59,674 nt of DNA, from the NCBI GenBank assembly GCA_001823545.1, contig MHUV01000007.1:1-59674 (forward strand), given 5' to 3'. Made by a program: the position numbers and the translations under genes. The number at the start of each line of letters is the position of its first letter. Positions within the stretch are counted from its first letter, which is position 1. Shown here one piece after another: positions 13,979-55,705 of the stretch. The DNA is from Candidatus Yonathbacteria bacterium RIFCSPLOWO2_01_FULL_43_27. Lineage in GTDB: Bacteria > Patescibacteriota > Minisyncoccia > Phycocordibacterales > UBA1550. The notes beneath the pieces were generated by a model. It saw only the letters and a program-made list of their open reading frames with translations, was not told the origin of the DNA and made no database searches.

Positions 13979-15001
13979 TTACAGCGAAAAACTTTTGATG
14001 TTATAGAGATCTTCTTCAGGCGCCTCTCCTACCGTATCCTTGCCATCCTCAGCAAGCTCATGAGGCTCTGCGGGGCGTGTCGCTTCCTCGACAGTCTCTC
14101 CGAGTGGGGGAAGGTTCTTTGCTTCACTCCCTGCTTCAAGTTCTGCCTGTAAGCGTTTGATGAAATTGCGCACGTCATCACTTGAAAAGAAATCGATGAC
14201 GATTTTCCCTCCGACTTCACGTTTTTCAATCTGCACGCGTGTGCCAAGGCGCTCGGTAAGTTCGTGCTCAAACTCCATAATCTCAGGATCAATCCCCCGT
14301 TCTGGCTTGCGCACTTTGTTCACCGCGATACGACGTGCGATACGTTCTGCTTCACGCACATTGAGCTTCTTAAATATAATTTCCTTAAAAAGGGTCATTT
14401 GCTCCTCCGCGCGATCACCGAGCATAAGGAGTGGACGAGTGTGTCCTTCGTTGATACGTCGCTCAGCAAGTGCGGTGAGCATTTCTTGAGGAAGCGCCAA
14501 AATGCGAATCGTATTAGATACATATTCGCGACTTTTACCAACCTTGTGCGCGATCTGCGCGTGCGTAAATTTGAATTCAGACGCAAGACGGTTAAAAGCC
14601 ATCGCGCGATCAACGGCATTCAGGTCTTCACGTTGGAGATTTTCAATGATCGCAAGTTCTAGTTTTGCTTGCGCTTCTTCTTCTTTTCCTTCTTCGCCAA
14701 TACGAATAAGTACTGGCACTTGGGTTAGTCCCGCAATTTTTGAAGCCCTCAAACGACGTTCGCCTGCAATAAGCTCGTATTCTACGGCAAGACCACCTTC
14801 TGGCTTTTCTACCTCACGACGCGTCACGACGAGTGGCTGAAGAATACCGTACTGTTTAACCGAATCAGCAAGATCACGAAGTTTCTCTTCATCAAATTCT
14901 TTGCGTGGCTGAAATGGATTTGGTTTTATTTTTTCAACTTCGATCCAAAAGATCGCATTCTTATACATTTGATGGTGTTGATTCTCGTGTGGTGTGGTCA
15001 T
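13979..15001 (-). CDS. parB: ParB/Spo0J family chromosome partitioning protein
   Basis: KIKPNPFQPRKEFDEEKLRDLADSVKQYG..., GERRLRAS. Confidence 0.93.
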   Translation of the reverse strand: MTTPHENQHHQMYKNAIFWIEVEKIKPNPFQPRKEFDEEKLRDLADSVKQYGILQPLVVTRREVEKPEGGLAVEYELIAGERRLRASKIAGLTQVPVLIRIGEEGKEEEAQAKLELAIIENLQREDLNAVDRAMAFNRLASEFKFTHAQIAHKVGKSREYVSNTIRILALPQEMLTALAERRINEGHTRPLLMLGDRAEEQMTLFKEIIFKKLNVREAERIARRIAVNKVRKPERGIDPEIMEFEHELTERLGTRVQIEKREVGGKIVIDFFSSDDVRNFIKRLQAELEAGSEAKNLPPLGETVEEATRPAEPHELAEDGKDTVGEAPEEDLYNIKSFSL

Positions 15002-15117: not shown

Positions 15118-15147
15118 TTTACAAACAACGATATTCAATGTTATAAT
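15118..15147 (+). promoter_or_regulatory. candidate promoter TTTACA-18-TATAAT of the flavin/heme locus
   Basis: Hexamers just upstream of the ATG at 15157. Confidence 0.5.
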
Positions 15148-15156
15148 ATAAGACAT

Positions 15157-15399
15157 ATGGGGCAAATAACAATATTTTTAGGGCACGGGTTGGTATGGTG
15201 GACAGGAATGCTCGGCGGGTTTTTCTTCCTTCTCCTCATTATCACCGCACTCGTAAAACAATTTAATTATAATATTTTTATGGGATGGCAGATCCCGCTC
15301 ACGCCACTTCACCATTGGTTTGGATGGCTTGCGTTTGGACTGCTCTTTATTCATTTCCTTCTCGCACTCTTTAGTTCTGTATTTATGGTCTTCTTCTAA
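15157..15399 (+). CDS. small two-TM protein resembling a ferric reductase/cytochrome b-like segment
   Basis: LHHWFGWLAFGLLFIHFLLAL: H53 and H66 spaced 13 residues in/near TM2, plus H10 in TM1. Confidence 0.65.
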   Translation: MGQITIFLGHGLVWWTGMLGGFFFLLLIITALVKQFNYNIFMGWQIPLTPLHHWFGWLAFGLLFIHFLLALFSSVFMVFF

Positions 15400-15427
15400 A
15401 AAACCATAATAGGACCACGAACACAAG

Positions 15428-16150
15428 ATGAATATTATCGCAAAGATCAAACACTGGTTTACCGAAGCACCATACGTTGAAGGCACGGTCATTGAATCAG
15501 AACGTATTGGCTCACGTATCCAAAAAGTTACCATTGGACTTCCGCTGGATGTCCGTGGCCCCTTTCCTATGGGTTCCTACATTGTCGCTTATACCTGGGG
15601 TTGTATACCTCGCGCATACTCGATTGCAAAAACCGACGGAGGTTCATTTACTCTTCTCGTAAGTTTTAGTGGTGGTGGCGCAGGCGCGCGATATTTCCGC
15701 GATATTACCGTCGGCAAAAAAGTTATTTTTTATGGACCTTTCGACGACTTCCCTTATCGTGCGGGCACTGGCCGTCCAAAAATATTCTTTGCAACCTCAA
15801 CAGGAGTTGCTCCTTTTCGTATGATGGTAGACGCTGCTATCAGCGAAGGTCTTCATGCGACGATCGTACTTGGATCACCCAAAGAAGGCGATGTCGCATT
15901 CAAGGAAGAGCTTGAGGAGCTCTCGCGCACGAACCCTCTCTTTTCTTTTGTCCCCACACTCTCAAACGCTGATCCTAATTGGCAAGGCGCGCGCGGATAT
16001 GTAACTGACTACATTTACAAAAACCCAGAGATCGTACGCTCAAGCGACGTATATATTTGTGGTATTCCCCCCATGACACTCGGTGTTCTCGATGCACTCA
16101 AAAAGATCCGCATGCCACAAGACAAGATATTTGTGCAAAAATTCGGATAA
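15428..16150 (+). CDS. FNR-like FAD/NAD(P)-binding oxidoreductase
   Basis: RAYSIAKT FAD-binding, FFATSTGVAPFRMM NAD-binding, YICGIPPM motif. Confidence 0.88.
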   Translation: MNIIAKIKHWFTEAPYVEGTVIESERIGSRIQKVTIGLPLDVRGPFPMGSYIVAYTWGCIPRAYSIAKTDGGSFTLLVSFSGGGAGARYFRDITVGKKVIFYGPFDDFPYRAGTGRPKIFFATSTGVAPFRMMVDAAISEGLHATIVLGSPKEGDVAFKEELEELSRTNPLFSFVPTLSNADPNWQGARGYVTDYIYKNPEIVRSSDVYICGIPPMTLGVLDALKKIRMPQDKIFVQKFG

Positions 16151-16192
16151 AGAGTATACTTACAATATTACTGATATCTCATCAATTCAACT

Positions 16193-16675
16193 ATGAACAT
16201 AAAAGAATCAACGATCTCTCATGGAATACAAGACGTGCGTAGGTACGGTATCGCTGTTTTAATAGTACTTTTTTTACTCAACGTCATCACATTGGGTGCA
16301 CTTCATTGGGTTGAATCGAACCAGCTTCATAATGAGCTCGCAAAATATATGGAAACGATCCCATCCCCTAGTGCCACAAGCACCACACAGACAATTCGTC
16401 TTCCTGAAGATGTTCTATCATTTCAATTGAGATCTTCTGATCGCACAGGTTTTTACGAAACCTCCCTCGGCACGGGGAAGGACCGACAGGATTATCTTGC
16501 GTACGCAGACCCTAACAAACATTATGTATTAATGAAATCCGAGAAGGCAATCCAAGAAGAAACAAAAGGGTTCGGTATTACACTCCTCGCGCTGTATGCA
16601 GGTGAAGTGATCCTTCTTCTTGGGTGGTGGTTCTTTGTTCGCGCAAAGATACGTGAGATCTTTGACATTGACTAA
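16193..16675 (+). CDS. membrane protein with two TM helices and an extracytoplasmic loop
   Basis: Two TM segments flanking a ~90 aa soluble segment. Confidence 0.65.
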   Translation: MNIKESTISHGIQDVRRYGIAVLIVLFLLNVITLGALHWVESNQLHNELAKYMETIPSPSATSTTQTIRLPEDVLSFQLRSSDRTGFYETSLGTGKDRQDYLAYADPNKHYVLMKSEKAIQEETKGFGITLLALYAGEVILLLGWWFFVRAKIREIFDID

Positions 16676-16697
16676 CAACGATAAATTAATAATTACT

Positions 16698-17276
16698 ATG
16701 CCAACATCCTTTTCAAAAAATATTCAAAAATTTCTTGTGCTCTCATTTACTGCCGTCGCGTTGGTAGTGATCGTCATTGGCGTCAGTCGTACCAAAAAAA
16801 CTGACGTTACTACAGATGCCAACAATGCATCCCCCACCCCTACACCAATAGACACCACCGGAGCGAAAACGTTCACAGGCACCTCCTACCAAACGCCGTG
16901 GGGTAACGCCGTTGCTTCTATTTCAGTCAAAAACGGCAAAGTTGTTGCTGTTACGATGCCTCAAGTACCAAACTCACCACCAAGCATCTTTGCAGAGCCA
17001 TACCTTGTCGACCAAGCACTTCGCACAGGAAGTGCTAACATCCAAGGTGTGTCTGGCGCCACCTTTACAAGCATGGCGTTTAAATCTTCTCTTGAAAATG
17101 CTCTTCTTCAGGCACAAACACAAGGAGAAACGATTACCGGAGGTACCGGCACCACGACCTCGACAGCAAAACCCGTAGTTCCACGTAAATACCGCGACGA
17201 TGATGACGAAGATGAGGATAGCGACGATGATTTCTTTGATTTTGACGACGACGAAGACGACGATTCAAGTCTCTAG
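16698..17276 (+). CDS. membrane-anchored FMN-binding domain protein with Asp-rich tail
   Basis: N-terminal TM; TPWGNAVASISVKNGKVVAV...NIQGVSGATFTSMAF; DDDDEDEDSDDD tail. Confidence 0.85.
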   Translation: MPTSFSKNIQKFLVLSFTAVALVVIVIGVSRTKKTDVTTDANNASPTPTPIDTTGAKTFTGTSYQTPWGNAVASISVKNGKVVAVTMPQVPNSPPSIFAEPYLVDQALRTGSANIQGVSGATFTSMAFKSSLENALLQAQTQGETITGGTGTTTSTAKPVVPRKYRDDDDEDEDSDDDFFDFDDDEDDDSSL

Positions 17277-17417
17277 TGTATCTTGTACAAGGTTGTACGA
17301 TACGTTTTTTAACGATTTTTTGAGTTTGTAAGATTTTTTTGCTGACATCGTCTTAATATTGGTACGCACTGCGAGACTTTGTTTCGTGGTTGTTTTGAAA
17401 ACTTTTATATTTTATTT

Positions 17418-18509
17418 ATGTCAACATTTTCAAAAAAACTTCAAAAATTCTTCATTTATTTCTTTACCGGTGTTTCGGCAGTTGTTATTGTGCTTGGGAT
17501 TCATCGTGCAAAGGAAACAAACGCGCTGGGAATAAATCCTATTCCTGACAACACGAGCGATATCCCCGGCGACACGTCTGAAACTTCAAGGCAAAATATT
17601 GTAAAAAACTCAAGCATACTCGGTACCTCGGTCGCTCTTCTCGATAAAACAGTTACCGCACAAGGCACCTCATACAAAACACCGTGGGGAAACCTCTCCA
17701 CGAAGATCCAGGTAAAAAATGGCAAGATTGTTGCCGTGGAAATCCCAGAGCTTCCCGATTCTCCTCCAAGTATCTACGCCGAGCCATACCTTATTGATCA
17801 GGCACTTCGTTCTGGTAGTACCAACATTCAAGGAGTTTCTGGGGCAACCGTTACCACCAATGCTTTCAAATCATCTCTTGAAAGCGCACTTGCGACGGCG
17901 CGTAAACAAGAAGGAACTTCCTCAGTAAATTCACCAAAAGCAGTGAGTGCAAAAAATACCAGCACGTCAGCAAAAACTACCTCACAAATTACGACCCCTC
18001 CTCCAGCCTATGCACTACCTCCTGCATACGTACCTCCGCAAGTAAAAACGCAGACAATTTCTCAACCTACACTTACACAGGCAACCCCAAAAGCAGGTGT
18101 ATCAGGGAATTTTACCGGTAATCCATTTTCAACCAAATGGGGAAATGCGGTTGCTTCAATTACCGTAACGAATGGGAAAATTACCGGCGTTACAATGCCG
18201 CAAGTTCCAAACTCTCCTCCGTCTATCGACGCAGAGCCATTTCTCATTTCACAGGCACTCGCCTCAGGAAATGCTAATATTCAAGGTGTGTCAGGCGCAA
18301 CCGTGGTAAGTAATGCATTCAGAGCATCGCTCGAAAGCGCTATTGCAAAAGCAAACGCGCAAGCAGTGACACAAGGAGCAACGACCGTAGTTACAAGCCC
18401 GACAACAACGGCAACTTCTAATACTACAATGACATCTTCAACAAACACTCAACCAACCAAATACAAAAAAAATAAAAGAAATCATGATGACGAAGAGGAC
18501 GACGACTAA
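17418..18509 (+). CDS. membrane-anchored protein with two FMN-binding domains
   Basis: Two SGAT-containing domains (VSGATVTTNAF and VSGATVVSNAF); Pro/Thr linker; acidic C-terminus. Confidence 0.85.
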   Translation: MSTFSKKLQKFFIYFFTGVSAVVIVLGIHRAKETNALGINPIPDNTSDIPGDTSETSRQNIVKNSSILGTSVALLDKTVTAQGTSYKTPWGNLSTKIQVKNGKIVAVEIPELPDSPPSIYAEPYLIDQALRSGSTNIQGVSGATVTTNAFKSSLESALATARKQEGTSSVNSPKAVSAKNTSTSAKTTSQITTPPPAYALPPAYVPPQVKTQTISQPTLTQATPKAGVSGNFTGNPFSTKWGNAVASITVTNGKITGVTMPQVPNSPPSIDAEPFLISQALASGNANIQGVSGATVVSNAFRASLESAIAKANAQAVTQGATTVVTSPTTTATSNTTMTSSTNTQPTKYKKNKRNHDDEEDDD

Positions 18510-18518
18510 TTTATATTT

Positions 18519-19442
18519 ATGAACCAACCCGAACATCGTGTATTTCATTCAATGGGGATCCCCATTCACATAACACTGGTGGGCTGTTCGGCAACAGAGG
18601 CAGACCACGCAGCACAAAAAGCAGAGGCCATATTCAACGAGTACGACCTCCGTTTTAGTCGTTTTAAAAATGAAAGTGAGCTCATGTCGCTTAATAACAG
18701 CAATGGTGTATGGCACAAAGTGTCACTGCCATTATTCCAAGTACTCAAAAAATGCGTAGCACTCTCGGCCGATACCATGGGAATATTTGATGCATCCGTA
18801 GGTGGAATACTTGCATCCTATGGATATGGATTGCCAAAAAAATTCATTCGAAAGACCCCCTTCCCTACGTACCGCGATCTTGCGTTCAACGATCGCGAAC
18901 TTTTGGTGCGTCTTGCGCCTGGACAAATTCTTGAACCAGCGTGTATTGTAAAAGGAATGTCAATTGATGCTGCCGGACAAGCTCTTTCGGAAGTACGCGG
19001 TTTTATGATAAATGCAGGTGGTGATATTCTTACGCATGGTTCATTTAATAATGGCTCAGCATGGAACATTGCCATACAGGATCCGCGTGACCTGCGCGCA
19101 ATTGTCACCACGATAGGTATCAAGAATGCCGGCATTGCAACTTCGGGTATTTACCAAACAGGAGGAGAACACGATGGTGAAAAATGGCACCACCTCATCA
19201 ATATGCAAACAGGAAAACCAGCTAATCGCACCATGAGCGCTACGGTGATTGCACCTACGTGCGAACAAGCAGACATTGAAGCATCGCTCGCAATCCTTCT
19301 CCCCTTCGAACAAACTGTTGCTCGCCTTGAGCAGAGAAAATTGCCATATTTCCTTATTTACAACGATGGGCATATTGCGAAAAATGCCGCTTTTTCGGCA
19401 CTTGAGGTTCCGTTTGACAAAATAGCAACGGATACAGTATAA
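18519..19442 (+). CDS. apbE: ApbE family FAD:protein FMN transferase
   Basis: FNEYDLRFSRFKNESELMSLN, FMINAGGDILTHG, GIATSGIYQTGG, HHLINMQTGKPA. Confidence 0.9.
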   Translation: MNQPEHRVFHSMGIPIHITLVGCSATEADHAAQKAEAIFNEYDLRFSRFKNESELMSLNNSNGVWHKVSLPLFQVLKKCVALSADTMGIFDASVGGILASYGYGLPKKFIRKTPFPTYRDLAFNDRELLVRLAPGQILEPACIVKGMSIDAAGQALSEVRGFMINAGGDILTHGSFNNGSAWNIAIQDPRDLRAIVTTIGIKNAGIATSGIYQTGGEHDGEKWHHLINMQTGKPANRTMSATVIAPTCEQADIEASLAILLPFEQTVARLEQRKLPYFLIYNDGHIAKNAAFSALEVPFDKIATDTV

Positions 19443-19478
19443 TTTAAAAGTGCCTATCCTTAACAAGGGAGTAAACTT

Positions 19479-19700
19479 ATGGAGGAATTTAAAATAGACC
19501 CGATCAAACAGAAGGAACTTCACGAAGAAGTTCTGCAAAAAATTGATCCTCGTATCGCAGAGATTTTACGAAAGCACCTTCATTATTCCACTCCTCAAGA
19601 AGAAGAGGTGCCATTCAACGAGGAGCCTCCAAAAAAGACCTCCCACAAAAATGGACCAGGTGCATTTATCGAGAATTCTATACCAGAAAGCCATCGATAA
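19479..19700 (+). CDS. hypothetical protein
   Basis: 73 aa ORF, upstream AAGGGAG-type SD. Confidence 0.55.
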   Translation: MEEFKIDPIKQKELHEEVLQKIDPRIAEILRKHLHYSTPQEEEVPFNEEPPKKTSHKNGPGAFIENSIPESHR

Positions 19701-19734
19701 ATGTCACCAATAAGGACAGCCGCACGTAGTACAA

Positions 19735-19760
19735 AGAGCGGGGACCCCCCTCCCCGCTCT
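19735..19760 (+). terminator. Rho-independent terminator
   Basis: AGAGCGGGGA CCCCCC TCCCCGCTCT TTTTTT. Confidence 0.85.
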
Positions 19761-19779
19761 TTTTTTATTTATATTTTTA

Positions 19780-38856: not shown

Positions 38857-40809
38857 ATGCATATTCTTACCGTTCTACCAATTACCCGAGGTGTTCTCAA
38901 AGGCACCTACACATACTTTTCAAAAGATCCCGCGGATATAGGATTAGTAATTTCTGTCCCTATTCGTTCACAAGAAATGCCTGCGCTCGTCGTAGAAACA
39001 CAAGAGGTATTTGATGCTAAATCAACGATAAAATCTTCAGGGTATGCTTTACGAAAAATTAAACAAATAAAACCTCTTACCATCTGGAACAGCGCTTTCA
39101 TTGATGCGGTAGATAAAACCGCACACATTCATGCGCAAGGATTTGGCGAGACACTTCTCACCCTCACTCCTAAAACAATTCTTGATGCATACCTTTCAAA
39201 AGATCTTGCTCTCCCCCACACGACATTTCCTTCATTTACTCACCACCCCCGTATTCTTGCTATCCAAAATAGCGCCACCGTGCGCCTCGAGTCCTACCAA
39301 CGTCTCGTACGCGAATCATTTGTCCGCCATGAATCAACATTTATCTGTGCTCCTACTGAGCAAGAAGTAGAACGAATTGGACAAATACTTAGCCACGGCA
39401 TCGAAGACTATGTATTTGTATTTCATAGCGGACTCTCCAAAAAACGCACCCTTGAACGGTGGCGCGCCGCACTTAAAGCAGAGCACGCTGTTCTTGTCGT
39501 TGGTACCCCGCAATATCTGGCACTCGGACGATATTTTGCAAGCATTATTTTAGATGAAGAACATGCACGTGGATGGAAGCCAATGGTACGTCCACTCATT
39601 GATATGCGTATCTTTGCAGAACAATACGCACATTTAGCCGGAAGCACTCTCATTCTTGGTGCTCCTATTCTTCGCGCTGAAACACAAAAGCGTATCAAAG
39701 AAGGAACGATTGAAGAATTTGAAAGAATTGCAGTACACACAGAGAAACATATTACCACCGCAATTATTGACCCTCGTATTGAAGAAAAAGCAATTAAAGA
39801 GAAGGCAGGAAAACGCGTGGTACAAATGCTCACTAATGAAGTGCGCGCACTCATACAAACAGCACGTGAAAAAAATCAAAATATCGTGCTTGTCTCCGCA
39901 CGAAAAGGACTGGCACCTATTACTGTTTGTGGTGACTGCGGTACGGTTGTGCGCTGTACTACGTGCGATAACCCTCTCGTTATTCACCACGTCAAAAGTC
40001 GCGAGAAGACGACCACACACACCACCGTCAAAAAAACTAGTGCAAGAATATTTACCTGCCACACCTGTGGTTTTGTACGTGTCCCTGAAGACGACGAACA
40101 CGAAACGTGTCGCTCGTGTGGCGGATGGCGCCTTGGAGCGCTCGGTATCGGCACCGAACGAATACAGGAGGAAGTAGAAAAGTTTTTTCCGGATACTCCT
40201 CACGTTATTTTCGATAGCGAACACATTACAACACGTACACAAGCAAAAAAATGCATCGCGCAGTTCGAGGAACATCCGCATTGTATTCTCATTGGTACCC
40301 CGATGGCCGTTCCCTACCTCACAAACGCAGACCATATAGTGATCATTTCGCTCGATTCACTCTTTGCAATCCCCGACTTTCGCATCAATGAGCACATTTT
40401 CGCGCTCGTCCTCACGCTTCGTGAAAAGGCAACGGCATCGCTCCTCATCCAAACGCGCGCCGACGACACCACACTTTACACCCAAGCACTCGCAGGTGAC
40501 CTTCTTACATTTTCTGAGAACGAACTTGCTCTCCGTAAAGCTTTTTCATACCCACCCTACAGCACAATTATCAAAATTATACTGCGCGGTACGAAAGAAG
40601 AATTTCCAGAAAAAATTGCACTCCTAAAAACATTTCTCGCTCCCCTTGAGATCATTACTCCCAATACCGTATCGAAAGAACCAAAAAACACCTATCGCAC
40701 GCACACCATTCTCAAGCTAAAAATCTGGCCTGACGAAAAACTCATCACCAAACTGCGCGCCCTTCCTCCCGAGTTCACCATCGACGTAAATCCAGACCAT
40801 TTACTGTAG
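38857..40809 (+). CDS. primosomal protein N' (PriA)-like protein, Walker A absent
   Basis: LDEEHARGWK, eight-Cys zinc region (CGDCG...CTTC...CHTC...CRSC), GTERIQEEVEKFFP; GxTGSGKTE not present. Confidence 0.85.
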   Translation: MHILTVLPITRGVLKGTYTYFSKDPADIGLVISVPIRSQEMPALVVETQEVFDAKSTIKSSGYALRKIKQIKPLTIWNSAFIDAVDKTAHIHAQGFGETLLTLTPKTILDAYLSKDLALPHTTFPSFTHHPRILAIQNSATVRLESYQRLVRESFVRHESTFICAPTEQEVERIGQILSHGIEDYVFVFHSGLSKKRTLERWRAALKAEHAVLVVGTPQYLALGRYFASIILDEEHARGWKPMVRPLIDMRIFAEQYAHLAGSTLILGAPILRAETQKRIKEGTIEEFERIAVHTEKHITTAIIDPRIEEKAIKEKAGKRVVQMLTNEVRALIQTAREKNQNIVLVSARKGLAPITVCGDCGTVVRCTTCDNPLVIHHVKSREKTTTHTTVKKTSARIFTCHTCGFVRVPEDDEHETCRSCGGWRLGALGIGTERIQEEVEKFFPDTPHVIFDSEHITTRTQAKKCIAQFEEHPHCILIGTPMAVPYLTNADHIVIISLDSLFAIPDFRINEHIFALVLTLREKATASLLIQTRADDTTLYTQALAGDLLTFSENELALRKAFSYPPYSTIIKIILRGTKEEFPEKIALLKTFLAPLEIITPNTVSKEPKNTYRTHTILKLKIWPDEKLITKLRALPPEFTIDVNPDHLL

Positions 40810-50624: not shown

Positions 50625-53164
<2,540 letters not shown>

Positions 53165-53174
53165 AATAAATGAA

Positions 53175-53714
53175 CTAACTATTAATGCCTGCAATAAATC
53201 CGGTTATAGAAAGTGTGTGAGATATATTCATTGAGTCTCGCCAAAAAACATAAGAATCAATTCGCTTCTCCTCTGGAACAATAGACGTAATCAGGACATA
53301 CCGTTGAAATTTTGTAACCGTACCTCCTCCAGCACTTGACTGATAGTATAACCCTGTTGCTGTATCCTGACGAATAGTTAACGTAGTTAAATTACACACA
53401 ACACCACCGCATGATATTAACATAGGTACAGATCTTGGATCCACAGCATAGTAATTATTCGCAACAATTCCACTATCCCACGCAGTATTTGTACCATTCC
53501 AATCATTCAACATGTTGGAATCCCTCTTTTGTCGCACTGCTTCTATCCCCTCTTGTGCCAGATTTACCGCGATAGCATGATCGCGCGCATACGCAGATTG
53601 AGGTAATGAACGTCCGATAATAGACATTGGGGCAACAACCGCAATAAGCAAAATAGAAATTGCAACAAGTGTCTCAAGGAGTGTAAACCCTTTTTGTGAA
53701 TGATTAGTGTGCAT
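53175..53714 (-). CDS. type IV minor pilin (PilV-like)
   Basis: KGFTLLETLVAISILLIAVVAP prepilin motif. Confidence 0.85.
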   Translation of the reverse strand: MHTNHSQKGFTLLETLVAISILLIAVVAPMSIIGRSLPQSAYARDHAIAVNLAQEGIEAVRQKRDSNMLNDWNGTNTAWDSGIVANNYYAVDPRSVPMLISCGGVVCNLTTLTIRQDTATGLYYQSSAGGGTVTKFQRYVLITSIVPEEKRIDSYVFWRDSMNISHTLSITGFIAGINS

Positions 53715-53715
53715 A

Positions 53716-54330
53716 TTATATATCATACATTCTTTGCGTTATCGTTGTTTGCAATTTAAATGCTGAGGTAATCTTTCCAGCTGTCGTTATTCCATCAACA
53801 AGCACCGCAACATAGGGCTGAACAGTATTAGGAAGAGGGGCTGCACCATTTACCACAAAGCGTAAGTTCGTAATATGAATGTCCTTTCCTGTTACCAGCA
53901 ATGGTGTTCCTGATGTTATGTGGCGAATCAAACATCCTTGCGTTGTAGAAGAGAAAGTACTTCCACAACCACTTACAGCATTTCCTGCGGTAATAGCTCC
54001 GGTGCCAACACCTCGTTTATAGATAACTCGCTGATCATTTTGGTCTGTTATAGCTAGAATAGTATCACCAGGATAAGGACAATCATTTACCCCAGTTGCC
54101 CCTCCTCCACAATTATACGTCGTTCCCGTCTTAATACGACGCGACATATCCTCCAGAGAAAGATTGAGGTTATCTATCGCCGTACGCGTTGCGCGTGATT
54201 TACGATCAGCATTAAGAACCGCAAGAAATGCACTTGAGGAAATAAAAAGAACGATAGTAAAAAGACCTATGGAAACAATCATCTCCACCAAGGTAAACCC
54301 TTTCTTATGTTGTGTCGTATGTACTCTCAT
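53716..54330 (-). CDS. type IV minor pilin (PilW-like)
   Basis: KKGFTLVEMIVSIGLFTIVLF. Confidence 0.85.
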   Translation of the reverse strand: MRVHTTQHKKGFTLVEMIVSIGLFTIVLFISSSAFLAVLNADRKSRATRTAIDNLNLSLEDMSRRIKTGTTYNCGGGATGVNDCPYPGDTILAITDQNDQRVIYKRGVGTGAITAGNAVSGCGSTFSSTTQGCLIRHITSGTPLLVTGKDIHITNLRFVVNGAAPLPNTVQPYVAVLVDGITTAGKITSAFKLQTTITQRMYDI

Positions 54331-54332
54331 TG

Positions 54333-54872
54333 TTATTCTATCGTTATTTGCCCTGCGGAAGTAATACGCACCGTAGCGCTATTAGTTGAGTTAGAAACAA
54401 GGAAGCTCGCTGTTAAATTACCTGGAACATTATTTATTAATGCGTCTGGAAAAGGTCGCTTAAAAACAATATCGAGTGGCGAGTTAGGAGAAAGTGCTGA
54501 AACATTAACACCAGAAGAAAGATTGATTGCCTCCACTCTCTCAGAAACATTATTATAAGTTCCACTCCCATCTTTATCTACAAAAATAACGTATGTTGGG
54601 TTATTGGCAATTAGCCTCACCCCATATGGACAGTTAAAAGAAGAGCCCCCACACTGTACTGCTGTCGTCGAGGTTGCTCTACCACTCGTCCCATACACCT
54701 GTGCCTCTCGCAGAGAGAGGACGATTGTTTCTGCAGTATTTGCAACCGTAGTCTTAACGCTGTATGAACGATATTTTGCAAGCACCACGCTCGTCAGTAC
54801 CAAAAATATACCCGTCGTCACAAGAAGCTCGATCAAGGTAAATGCTGATTGTGACGTACGAAATTTTTTCAT
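54333..54872 (-). CDS. type IV/GspH-like pseudopilin
   Basis: [23 protein letters not shown]. Confidence 0.85.
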   Translation of the reverse strand: MKKFRTSQSAFTLIELLVTTGIFLVLTSVVLAKYRSYSVKTTVANTAETIVLSLREAQVYGTSGRATSTTAVQCGGSSFNCPYGVRLIANNPTYVIFVDKDGSGTYNNVSERVEAINLSSGVNVSALSPNSPLDIVFKRPFPDALINNVPGNLTASFLVSNSTNSATVRITSAGQITIE

Positions 54873-55705
54873 TACAATAATAAATCAATAATATTTACTG
54901 AGCCGTCAAAGAAATTTATATGAGTAAAGTATACTATAAAAACACCTAAAATAAGAAACGGACCAAAAGGAATTTCACTCTTAAATGTCCACGACGTTGT
55001 AGTGATTTTTGATATAGTAAATTTTTGCTGTATGCGCTGTGCCACCATCATCACAACTGCGAACAATGCGCCAATCCAAAAACCAAACATAACCGCCGAC
55101 ATACCAAGCGTCATTCCTAAAAACCACCCTATACCTATTGCAAGTTTTCCATCACCGAGCCCCATCCATCGTCCTCGTGAAAAAAACCAAAGAGCCCAGA
55201 ACGGGAGAAAATGAAGCGGGCCAGCGAGCAGTGTGAAATAGTATGGAAACTGAAATGCGTGTAGTAATCCTCCAGGTACTGTCCACAAAAACCAGAGTAC
55301 AGAAAGTATCGCAAACATCGCCACGAGACCGTCAGGGATTATCTGGTGGCGAATATCATACACGGCAATTACCAGAAGTATAGAAAAAATAACGACAAGA
55401 TAAATTGATTCAAAAAGAGATTTCTCTAGAGCAAACACCGCAACAAAGATTAAACCAGAAAGCGCCTCGACTAAAGGATACTGCCACGAAAGACGCACCG
55501 AACACCCTCGACAACGCGCGCGCTGAACCAGGAAACTCACGAGCGGGATCAACTCATACCAATGCAGTGTTTTTCCACACGCAAAACACTGCGATCTACC
55601 TTTAAGAGGTGAGGTTCCACTATTGTAGCGATAAATCACCACATTAAGGAAACTACCAATTATAGTACCGAGGACAAACATATAAAGTGTACTCAAAAAT
55701 TCCAT
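54872..55705 (-). CDS. pilD: prepilin peptidase (A24)
   Basis: GSFLNVVIYR, CFACGKTLHWYELIPLVSFL, GLGDGKLAIGIG. Confidence 0.92.
   Translation of the reverse strand: MEFLSTLYMFVLGTIIGSFLNVVIYRYNSGTSPLKGRSQCFACGKTLHWYELIPLVSFLVQRARCRGCSVRLSWQYPLVEALSGLIFVAVFALEKSLFESIYLVVIFSILLVIAVYDIRHQIIPDGLVAMFAILSVLWFLWTVPGGLLHAFQFPYYFTLLAGPLHFLPFWALWFFSRGRWMGLGDGKLAIGIGWFLGMTLGMSAVMFGFWIGALFAVVMMVAQRIQQKFTISKITTTSWTFKSEIPFGPFLILGVFIVYFTHINFFDGSVNIIDLLL

Follow-up and report, generated by a model that had tools for sequence, protein, structure and literature searches.

Electron transfer across the membrane to flavinylated proteins has been described in several bacterial systems. MsrQ-like systems (Meheust et al., 2021, PMC8238504) bring together an NAD(P)H domain, a membrane haem protein, FMN_bind proteins and the flavin transferase ApbE, and two-subunit NQR/RNF-like systems that carry electrons from NAD(P)H to flavin mononucleotide (FMN) have been described from Actinobacteria and from the Candidate Phyla Radiation (CPR) (PMC8238504). 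DUF4405 is a flavinylation-linked cytochrome family that binds haem b when expressed and clusters with apbE, and the ferrosome-linked FezC has been modelled as a homodimer (PMC11334425, mSystems 2024). Flavin-based extracellular electron transfer (EET) of the Listeria type (Ndh2, EetA/B, PplA, FmnB) also relies on a transferase of the ApbE type and, outside the membrane, on FMN_bind proteins that carry several flavins. The 59,674-nucleotide contig MHUV01000007.1 of Candidatus Yonathbacteria bacterium RIFCSPLOWO2_01_FULL_43_27, hereafter the window, carries six consecutive plus-strand genes (15157-19442) that encode, in order, an 80-residue membrane protein (mini), an FNR-like reductase, a second membrane protein (tm160), two FMN_bind proteins (FMN1 and FMN2) and ApbE. 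This cassette adds a new, miniaturised variant to the known systems of transmembrane electron transfer associated with flavinylation, and it probably forms a minimal electron-export chain in which mini acts as a homodimeric diheme cytochrome.

The genes of the cassette are strictly co-inherited. In a survey of 149 relatives, with a genus of 16 genomes, FMN_bind was found in 27 genomes including the host's own, ten of them in the genus, and in 16/16 genus genomes mini and FMN_bind are either both present (ten) or both absent (six). The order mini-FNR-tm160-FMN_bind-ApbE is kept in 12 genomes, namely those ten and two that were found in a broader scan of 85,488 species genomes, a Magasanikbacteria metagenome-assembled genome (L067) and BP6.bin83 (L068). 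FMN2, with two or three FMN_bind domains, is optional, and in one genus genome (G009) the cassette is split over two contigs. In most genus genomes it lies between parB and a HAD-family gene. These two genes stand near each other without it in the cassette-less genomes G012, G001, G004 and G006 and in G005, which carries its cassette elsewhere, indicating that absence at this site is real and that the cassette is gained or lost as a block. Co-conservation in relatives, which an earlier reading of the DNA letters alone (the original prediction) had called for, is borne out by the shared gene order and the 16/16 agreement.

The AlphaFold model of mini (15157-15399, plus strand) contains helices at residues 2-43 and 48-79, with a predicted local distance difference test (pLDDT) score of 83, in agreement with the two transmembrane segments proposed for it earlier. 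Across 19 aligned homologous units, whose identity to the window copy ranges from 28 to 81%, the only invariant residues are G17, N37, H52, G56, H66 and L69. The pattern H-x3-G-x9-H, which contains the predicted haem ligands H52 (15310-15312) and H66 (15352-15354) in H-x13-H spacing, is present in 19/19 units. The H-x12-H pair (H53 and H66) named in the original prediction as the bis-histidine pattern occurs in 11/19; H53 is kept in close orthologs and is replaced by lysine in G853 and by other residues in tandem fusions, so that H-x12-H is not the conserved pair. A 14-residue separation of histidines (H-x13-H) is typical of diheme b cytochromes.

A phylum search revealed distant mini homologs in other Patescibacteria, two as single units and five as tandem-fused genes. 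The single unit of G694 belongs to a four-gene set, FMN_bind-ApbE-mini-FNR, and that of G853 accompanies FMN_bind and ApbE, in both cases without tm160. The tandem fusions (five genes in four genomes) comprise two units in 151 residues, with four transmembrane helices and four histidines, and every one of them adjoins an FNR gene for the same reductase type as in the window. The mini-FNR pairs of this family (f257) lie at L100:6263-7397, L101:2-926, L102:5569-6703, L103:5545-6679 and L116:466-1600. By the Rosetta-stone argument, such fusions indicate that two mini units act together. Each unit contributes two transmembrane histidines (H52 and H66), so a fusion holds four, and the single-unit form would reach this number as a dimer. 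The L103 fusion exceeds the Pfam cut-offs for both DUF4405 (6.7e-8; 33.4 versus 26.7 bits) and cytochrome b561 (PF03188; 3.2e-7; 31.1 versus 23 bits), and among the close mini orthologs Ferric_reduct was weakly matched by 12/12, cytochrome b561 by seven and DUF4405 by six. The best reading of these sequences is that mini would be a homodimeric diheme b-type cytochrome, and the single units and fusions may mark the way from a homodimer to a tandem-fused protein, a simple example from nature of the manner in which duplication may yield diheme membrane proteins. Neither ApbE nor a convincing FMN_bind match was found within the fetched stretches around the f257 pairs, which apparently make flavinylation-free use of the same cytochrome. 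Weak matches to mini in Niabella (L071) and in G316 were attributed to chance, having no in-frame gene or an internal stop and no cassette genes nearby.

Like DUF4405 and FezC, mini is a small membrane protein with conserved histidines and a link to apbE. DUF4405 has been described as a six-transmembrane protein, whereas mini is one two-helix unit, and the DUF4405/FezC clusters belong to Proteobacteria and Firmicutes (PMC11334425), while mini is found in CPR with a stand-alone FNR and FMN_bind. The MsrQ-like systems share the general composition of the cassette, with the haem of mini as a prediction, but they contain a six-transmembrane protein and often a fused NAD domain, whereas mini has two helices, is separate from its reductase and stays below the PF01794 cut-off. 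In comparison with Listeria-type EET, no quinone step is suggested here, and the roles of Ndh2 and EetAB would fall to the NAD(P)H reductase and the haem protein; none of Ndh2, EetA, EetB and PplA is annotated in the cassette, a statement confined to the cassette because no genome-wide search was made for them.

The reductase (15428-16150, plus strand, 240 residues, no transmembrane helix) contains the motifs RxYS and CG-x-P-P-M and matches NAD_binding_1 (1.4e-16) and FAD_binding_6 (3.7e-5), as expected of the FNR-like NAD(P)H/FAD reductase originally proposed, and its nearest PDB entries are benzoate dioxygenase reductase and NqrF. FMN1 (16698-17276, plus strand) is membrane-anchored with one FMN_bind domain (16899-17105). 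FMN2 (17418-18509, plus strand), also membrane-anchored, carries two (17685-17891 and 18138-18344), so that the two FMN_bind proteins recognised before provide three flavin sites at the locus rather than one each. Their Pfam scores are 27.2 and 57.7 bits against a cut-off of 22, FMN2 matches the FMN-binding domain of PDB 8p2a (E=1.2e-7), and the three FMN_bind stretches of the whole genome all lie in the cassette. FMN1 ends in an acidic C-terminal tail (17190-17276; 19 Asp/Glu in the last 45 residues), which is found to a varying degree across the genus and not in L067 or L068. ApbE (18519-19442, plus strand, 307 residues), an FAD:protein FMN transferase, was confirmed by Pfam (1.9e-49) and PDB 3pnd (E=7.6e-24), and S209, H225 and D252 occupy the places of the catalytic Ser-His-Asp. 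In G002 an apparent FMN2-ApbE fusion (L036:8920-11097) crosses an X stretch and was treated as an assembly gap. FMN2 and ApbE are in frame and 3-9 nucleotides apart in four genomes, and stop-codon readthrough between them was dropped as an explanation because spacing or frame differs in other genomes.

The flavinylation motif sites lie at 17040-17080, 17820-17860 and 18270-18310. The canonical motif is D-x-x-[ST]-G-A-[ST] (PMC12052999), and its Asp was reported as essential in one study (PMC10722498), while its change to Ala had a minor effect in another (PMC12052999). In the window the motif reads Q-G-V-S-G-A-T; the SGAT that had been pointed out before is kept, and the canonical Asp is replaced by Gln. 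Asp, Asn or Ser occupies this position in the NQR/RNF-like sets of the order, Asn or Ser in many of their domains. As judged from the motif, it is likely that the FMN_bind proteins are flavinylated.

In the rest of the order, the usual neighbour of FMN_bind and ApbE is a protein of some 500 residues, and 6/6 of those scanned contain an NQR2/RnfD domain (five above the cut-off and one below) with a C-terminal NAD_binding_1. These sets share with the cassette the path from NAD(P)H to extracytosolic FMN_bind and the use of ApbE. They differ in that an NqrB/RnfD membrane domain is fused to FNR. Family searches, on which all genome-wide absences given here are based, found no PF03116 (NqrB/RnfD) in the host genome and, within the genus, detected it in G005 only (1/16), which has both systems. 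The original remark that no Rnf or Nqr gene is visible at the locus thus extends, for NqrB/RnfD, to the whole genome, and the distribution makes the mini cassette look like a replacement for the known NAD(P)H-to-FMN device.

In the proposed path, the soluble FAD reductase would take electrons from NAD(P)H and dock on the cytosolic face of the mini homodimer. The two-helix hairpins, one per subunit, would pack into a four-helix bundle that binds two b haems. Both H52 would ligate the haem near the cytosolic side and both H66 the one nearer the outer side, and electrons would cross the membrane from haem H52/H52' to haem H66/H66'. H52 is placed on the FNR side because the interhelix loop of mini, with its conserved basic residues, is expected inside. 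The outer haem would then reduce FMN1 and FMN2, both presumably flavinylated by ApbE, and their FMN domains would pass electrons to an acceptor outside the cell, which might be Fe(III), a quinone or humic substance, a partner cell or a protein of the envelope. Location, direction and acceptor are inferred. A chain from NAD(P)H through reductase and membrane haem to surface flavin, as first suggested, is the best-supported reading in view of co-inheritance, H-x13-H, the fusions and the DUF4405/b561 matches, with haem binding and surface exposure as its predicted parts.

Several results weigh against this chain. The cassette encodes no acceptor enzyme. The window mini has no Pfam family above its cut-off and only a sub-threshold match to Ferric_reduct (PF01794; 16.2 versus 28 bits), its profile gave no signal against E. 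coli MsrQ, and Foldseek with its model returned nothing below E=1 (best E 1.4); sequence searches of the PDB with mini were also negative. None of the 16 genus genomes yielded a ferrochelatase, and FAD synthetase gave no match above the cut-off; the cell therefore probably scavenges haem and FAD or makes them with diverged enzymes. Gln replaces the motif Asp in 24/24 FMN_bind domains of the mini systems (genus, L067 and L068), and neither a signal peptide nor a transmembrane segment is visible in the window ApbE. All ApbEs inspected in the genus and order begin within a few residues of the first conserved strand, without a signal peptide, and in the NQR/RNF-like sets of the order such a signal-less ApbE accompanies FMN proteins whose anchors, with a basic N-terminus, are of the export type. 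An export signal on ApbE is typical, not universal. Cytosolic ApbEs are known, and a seven-residue tag can be modified by ApbE (PMC12052999). One explanation would be that flavinylation takes place in the cytosol, on an unfolded substrate, before export. Signal-less ApbEs (window; L031-L058, L098 and L099) belong to both mini and NQR/RNF-like sets.

Some of these points bear on other explanations. The same chain might serve iron reduction in assimilation, or a single envelope protein, instead of a respiratory-type sink, a purpose that seems rather unlikely and that competes with the export chain on purpose only and not on mechanism. MsrQ-like, PepSY-like and some NQR/RNF-like flavinylated systems adjoin iron transporters (PMC8238504), and the acidic FMN1 tails in the genus could bind cations; no conserved transporter or reductase gene, however, was seen in the cassette or its neighbourhood. 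It is improbable that mini lacks haem and merely anchors the reductase, with electrons reaching FMN via another cofactor such as flavin or quinone. The missing ferrochelatase, the sub-threshold Pfam scores of the window copy and the structure search without a match would fit such an anchor, but H52 and H66 are invariant at diheme-type spacing while most positions vary, a homolog exceeds the DUF4405 and cytochrome b561 cut-offs, and the genome is without an NqrB-like flavin channel. Still less probable is a cytosolic site of action for ApbE and the FMN domains, with the single transmembrane segment keeping the FMN domain at the inner face of the membrane: the signal-less ApbEs would suit it, as would the basic residues flanking the FMN1 anchor on both sides, for which the positive-inside rule does not fix the topology, but the order's NQR/RNF-like FMN proteins pair export anchors with equally signal-less ApbE, the linkers are rich in Ser, Thr and Pro, as is typical of exported regions, and a transmembrane haem pair would be purposeless.

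Members of the CPR are commonly portrayed as fermentative bacteria that lack respiratory chains. If the electron-export chain is true, a co-inherited NAD(P)H-to-outside cassette would let them dispose of reducing power. To call such redox wires unprecedented in this group would be too strong, since NQR/RNF-like systems have already been reported (PMC8238504) and are common across the order. Flavinylation surveys that insist on six transmembrane helices in the cytochrome, on a score above the Pfam cut-off or on a signal peptide in ApbE are suggested to undercount the CPR. A bolder combination is offered tentatively and with some doubt, namely that an 80-residue homodimeric diheme cytochrome would rank with the smallest conduits that nature uses to move electrons across a membrane and would have followed a homodimer-to-fusion path, that a cytosolic ApbE would flavinylate an Asp-less motif before export, and that in these bacteria, where neither ferrochelatase nor FAD synthetase was detected, an NAD(P)H-to-surface sink would run on scavenged cofactors.

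The remaining protein of the cassette, tm160 (16193-16675, plus strand, 160 residues), has two transmembrane helices with a small extracytosolic beta domain between them, and AlphaFold gives a helix, four strands and a helix (pLDDT 77). It matched no Pfam family and no PDB fold at E<0.1, and its interpretation as a PepSY or sensor domain was rejected on the latter result. The protein would lie N-in/C-in with the beta domain outside. It is regarded as accessory because the sets of G694 and G853 lack it, and is perhaps a docking partner.

The host genome (740,909 bp, 99.6% complete) has Candidatus Yonathbacteria and Nomurabacteria (CPR) as its closest named relatives, consistent with the small CPR-like genome assumed at the outset. 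Base composition of the cassette is not unusual (GC content 0.444 versus 0.434 for the window). Upstream lies parB (13979-15001, minus strand), downstream a series of minus-strand genes, and the gaps within the cassette are, in gene order, 28, 42, 22, 141 and 9 nucleotides. The locus had been given a start at 15118, which corresponds to the -35 hexamer of a promoter-like TTTACA-18-TATAAT (15118-15147, plus strand; 11/12 consensus match, extended -10 TG) and not to the first gene, which begins at 15157. A consensus scan found 12 promoter-like sites versus 8.6 expected, so that one such site is weak evidence alone. The -10 element ends 9 nucleotides before the mini ATG and a TANNNT hexamer stands 7-10 nucleotides ahead of the mini start in several relatives; the transcript may therefore start almost at the ATG and is possibly leaderless.

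A small separate transcription unit follows at 19414-19762, where a perfect TTGACA-18-TATAAT overlaps the end of apbE and precedes a 73-residue open reading frame (ORF) (19479-19700, no Pfam match) and a 12-bp terminator-like hairpin. Farther along the window, a 650-residue ORF (38857-40806) has zero Pfam families at E<=0.001, and a type IV pilin-like N_methyl ORF (53178-53726) lies among similar-sized minus-strand ORFs (52661-55705), possibly encoding pili.

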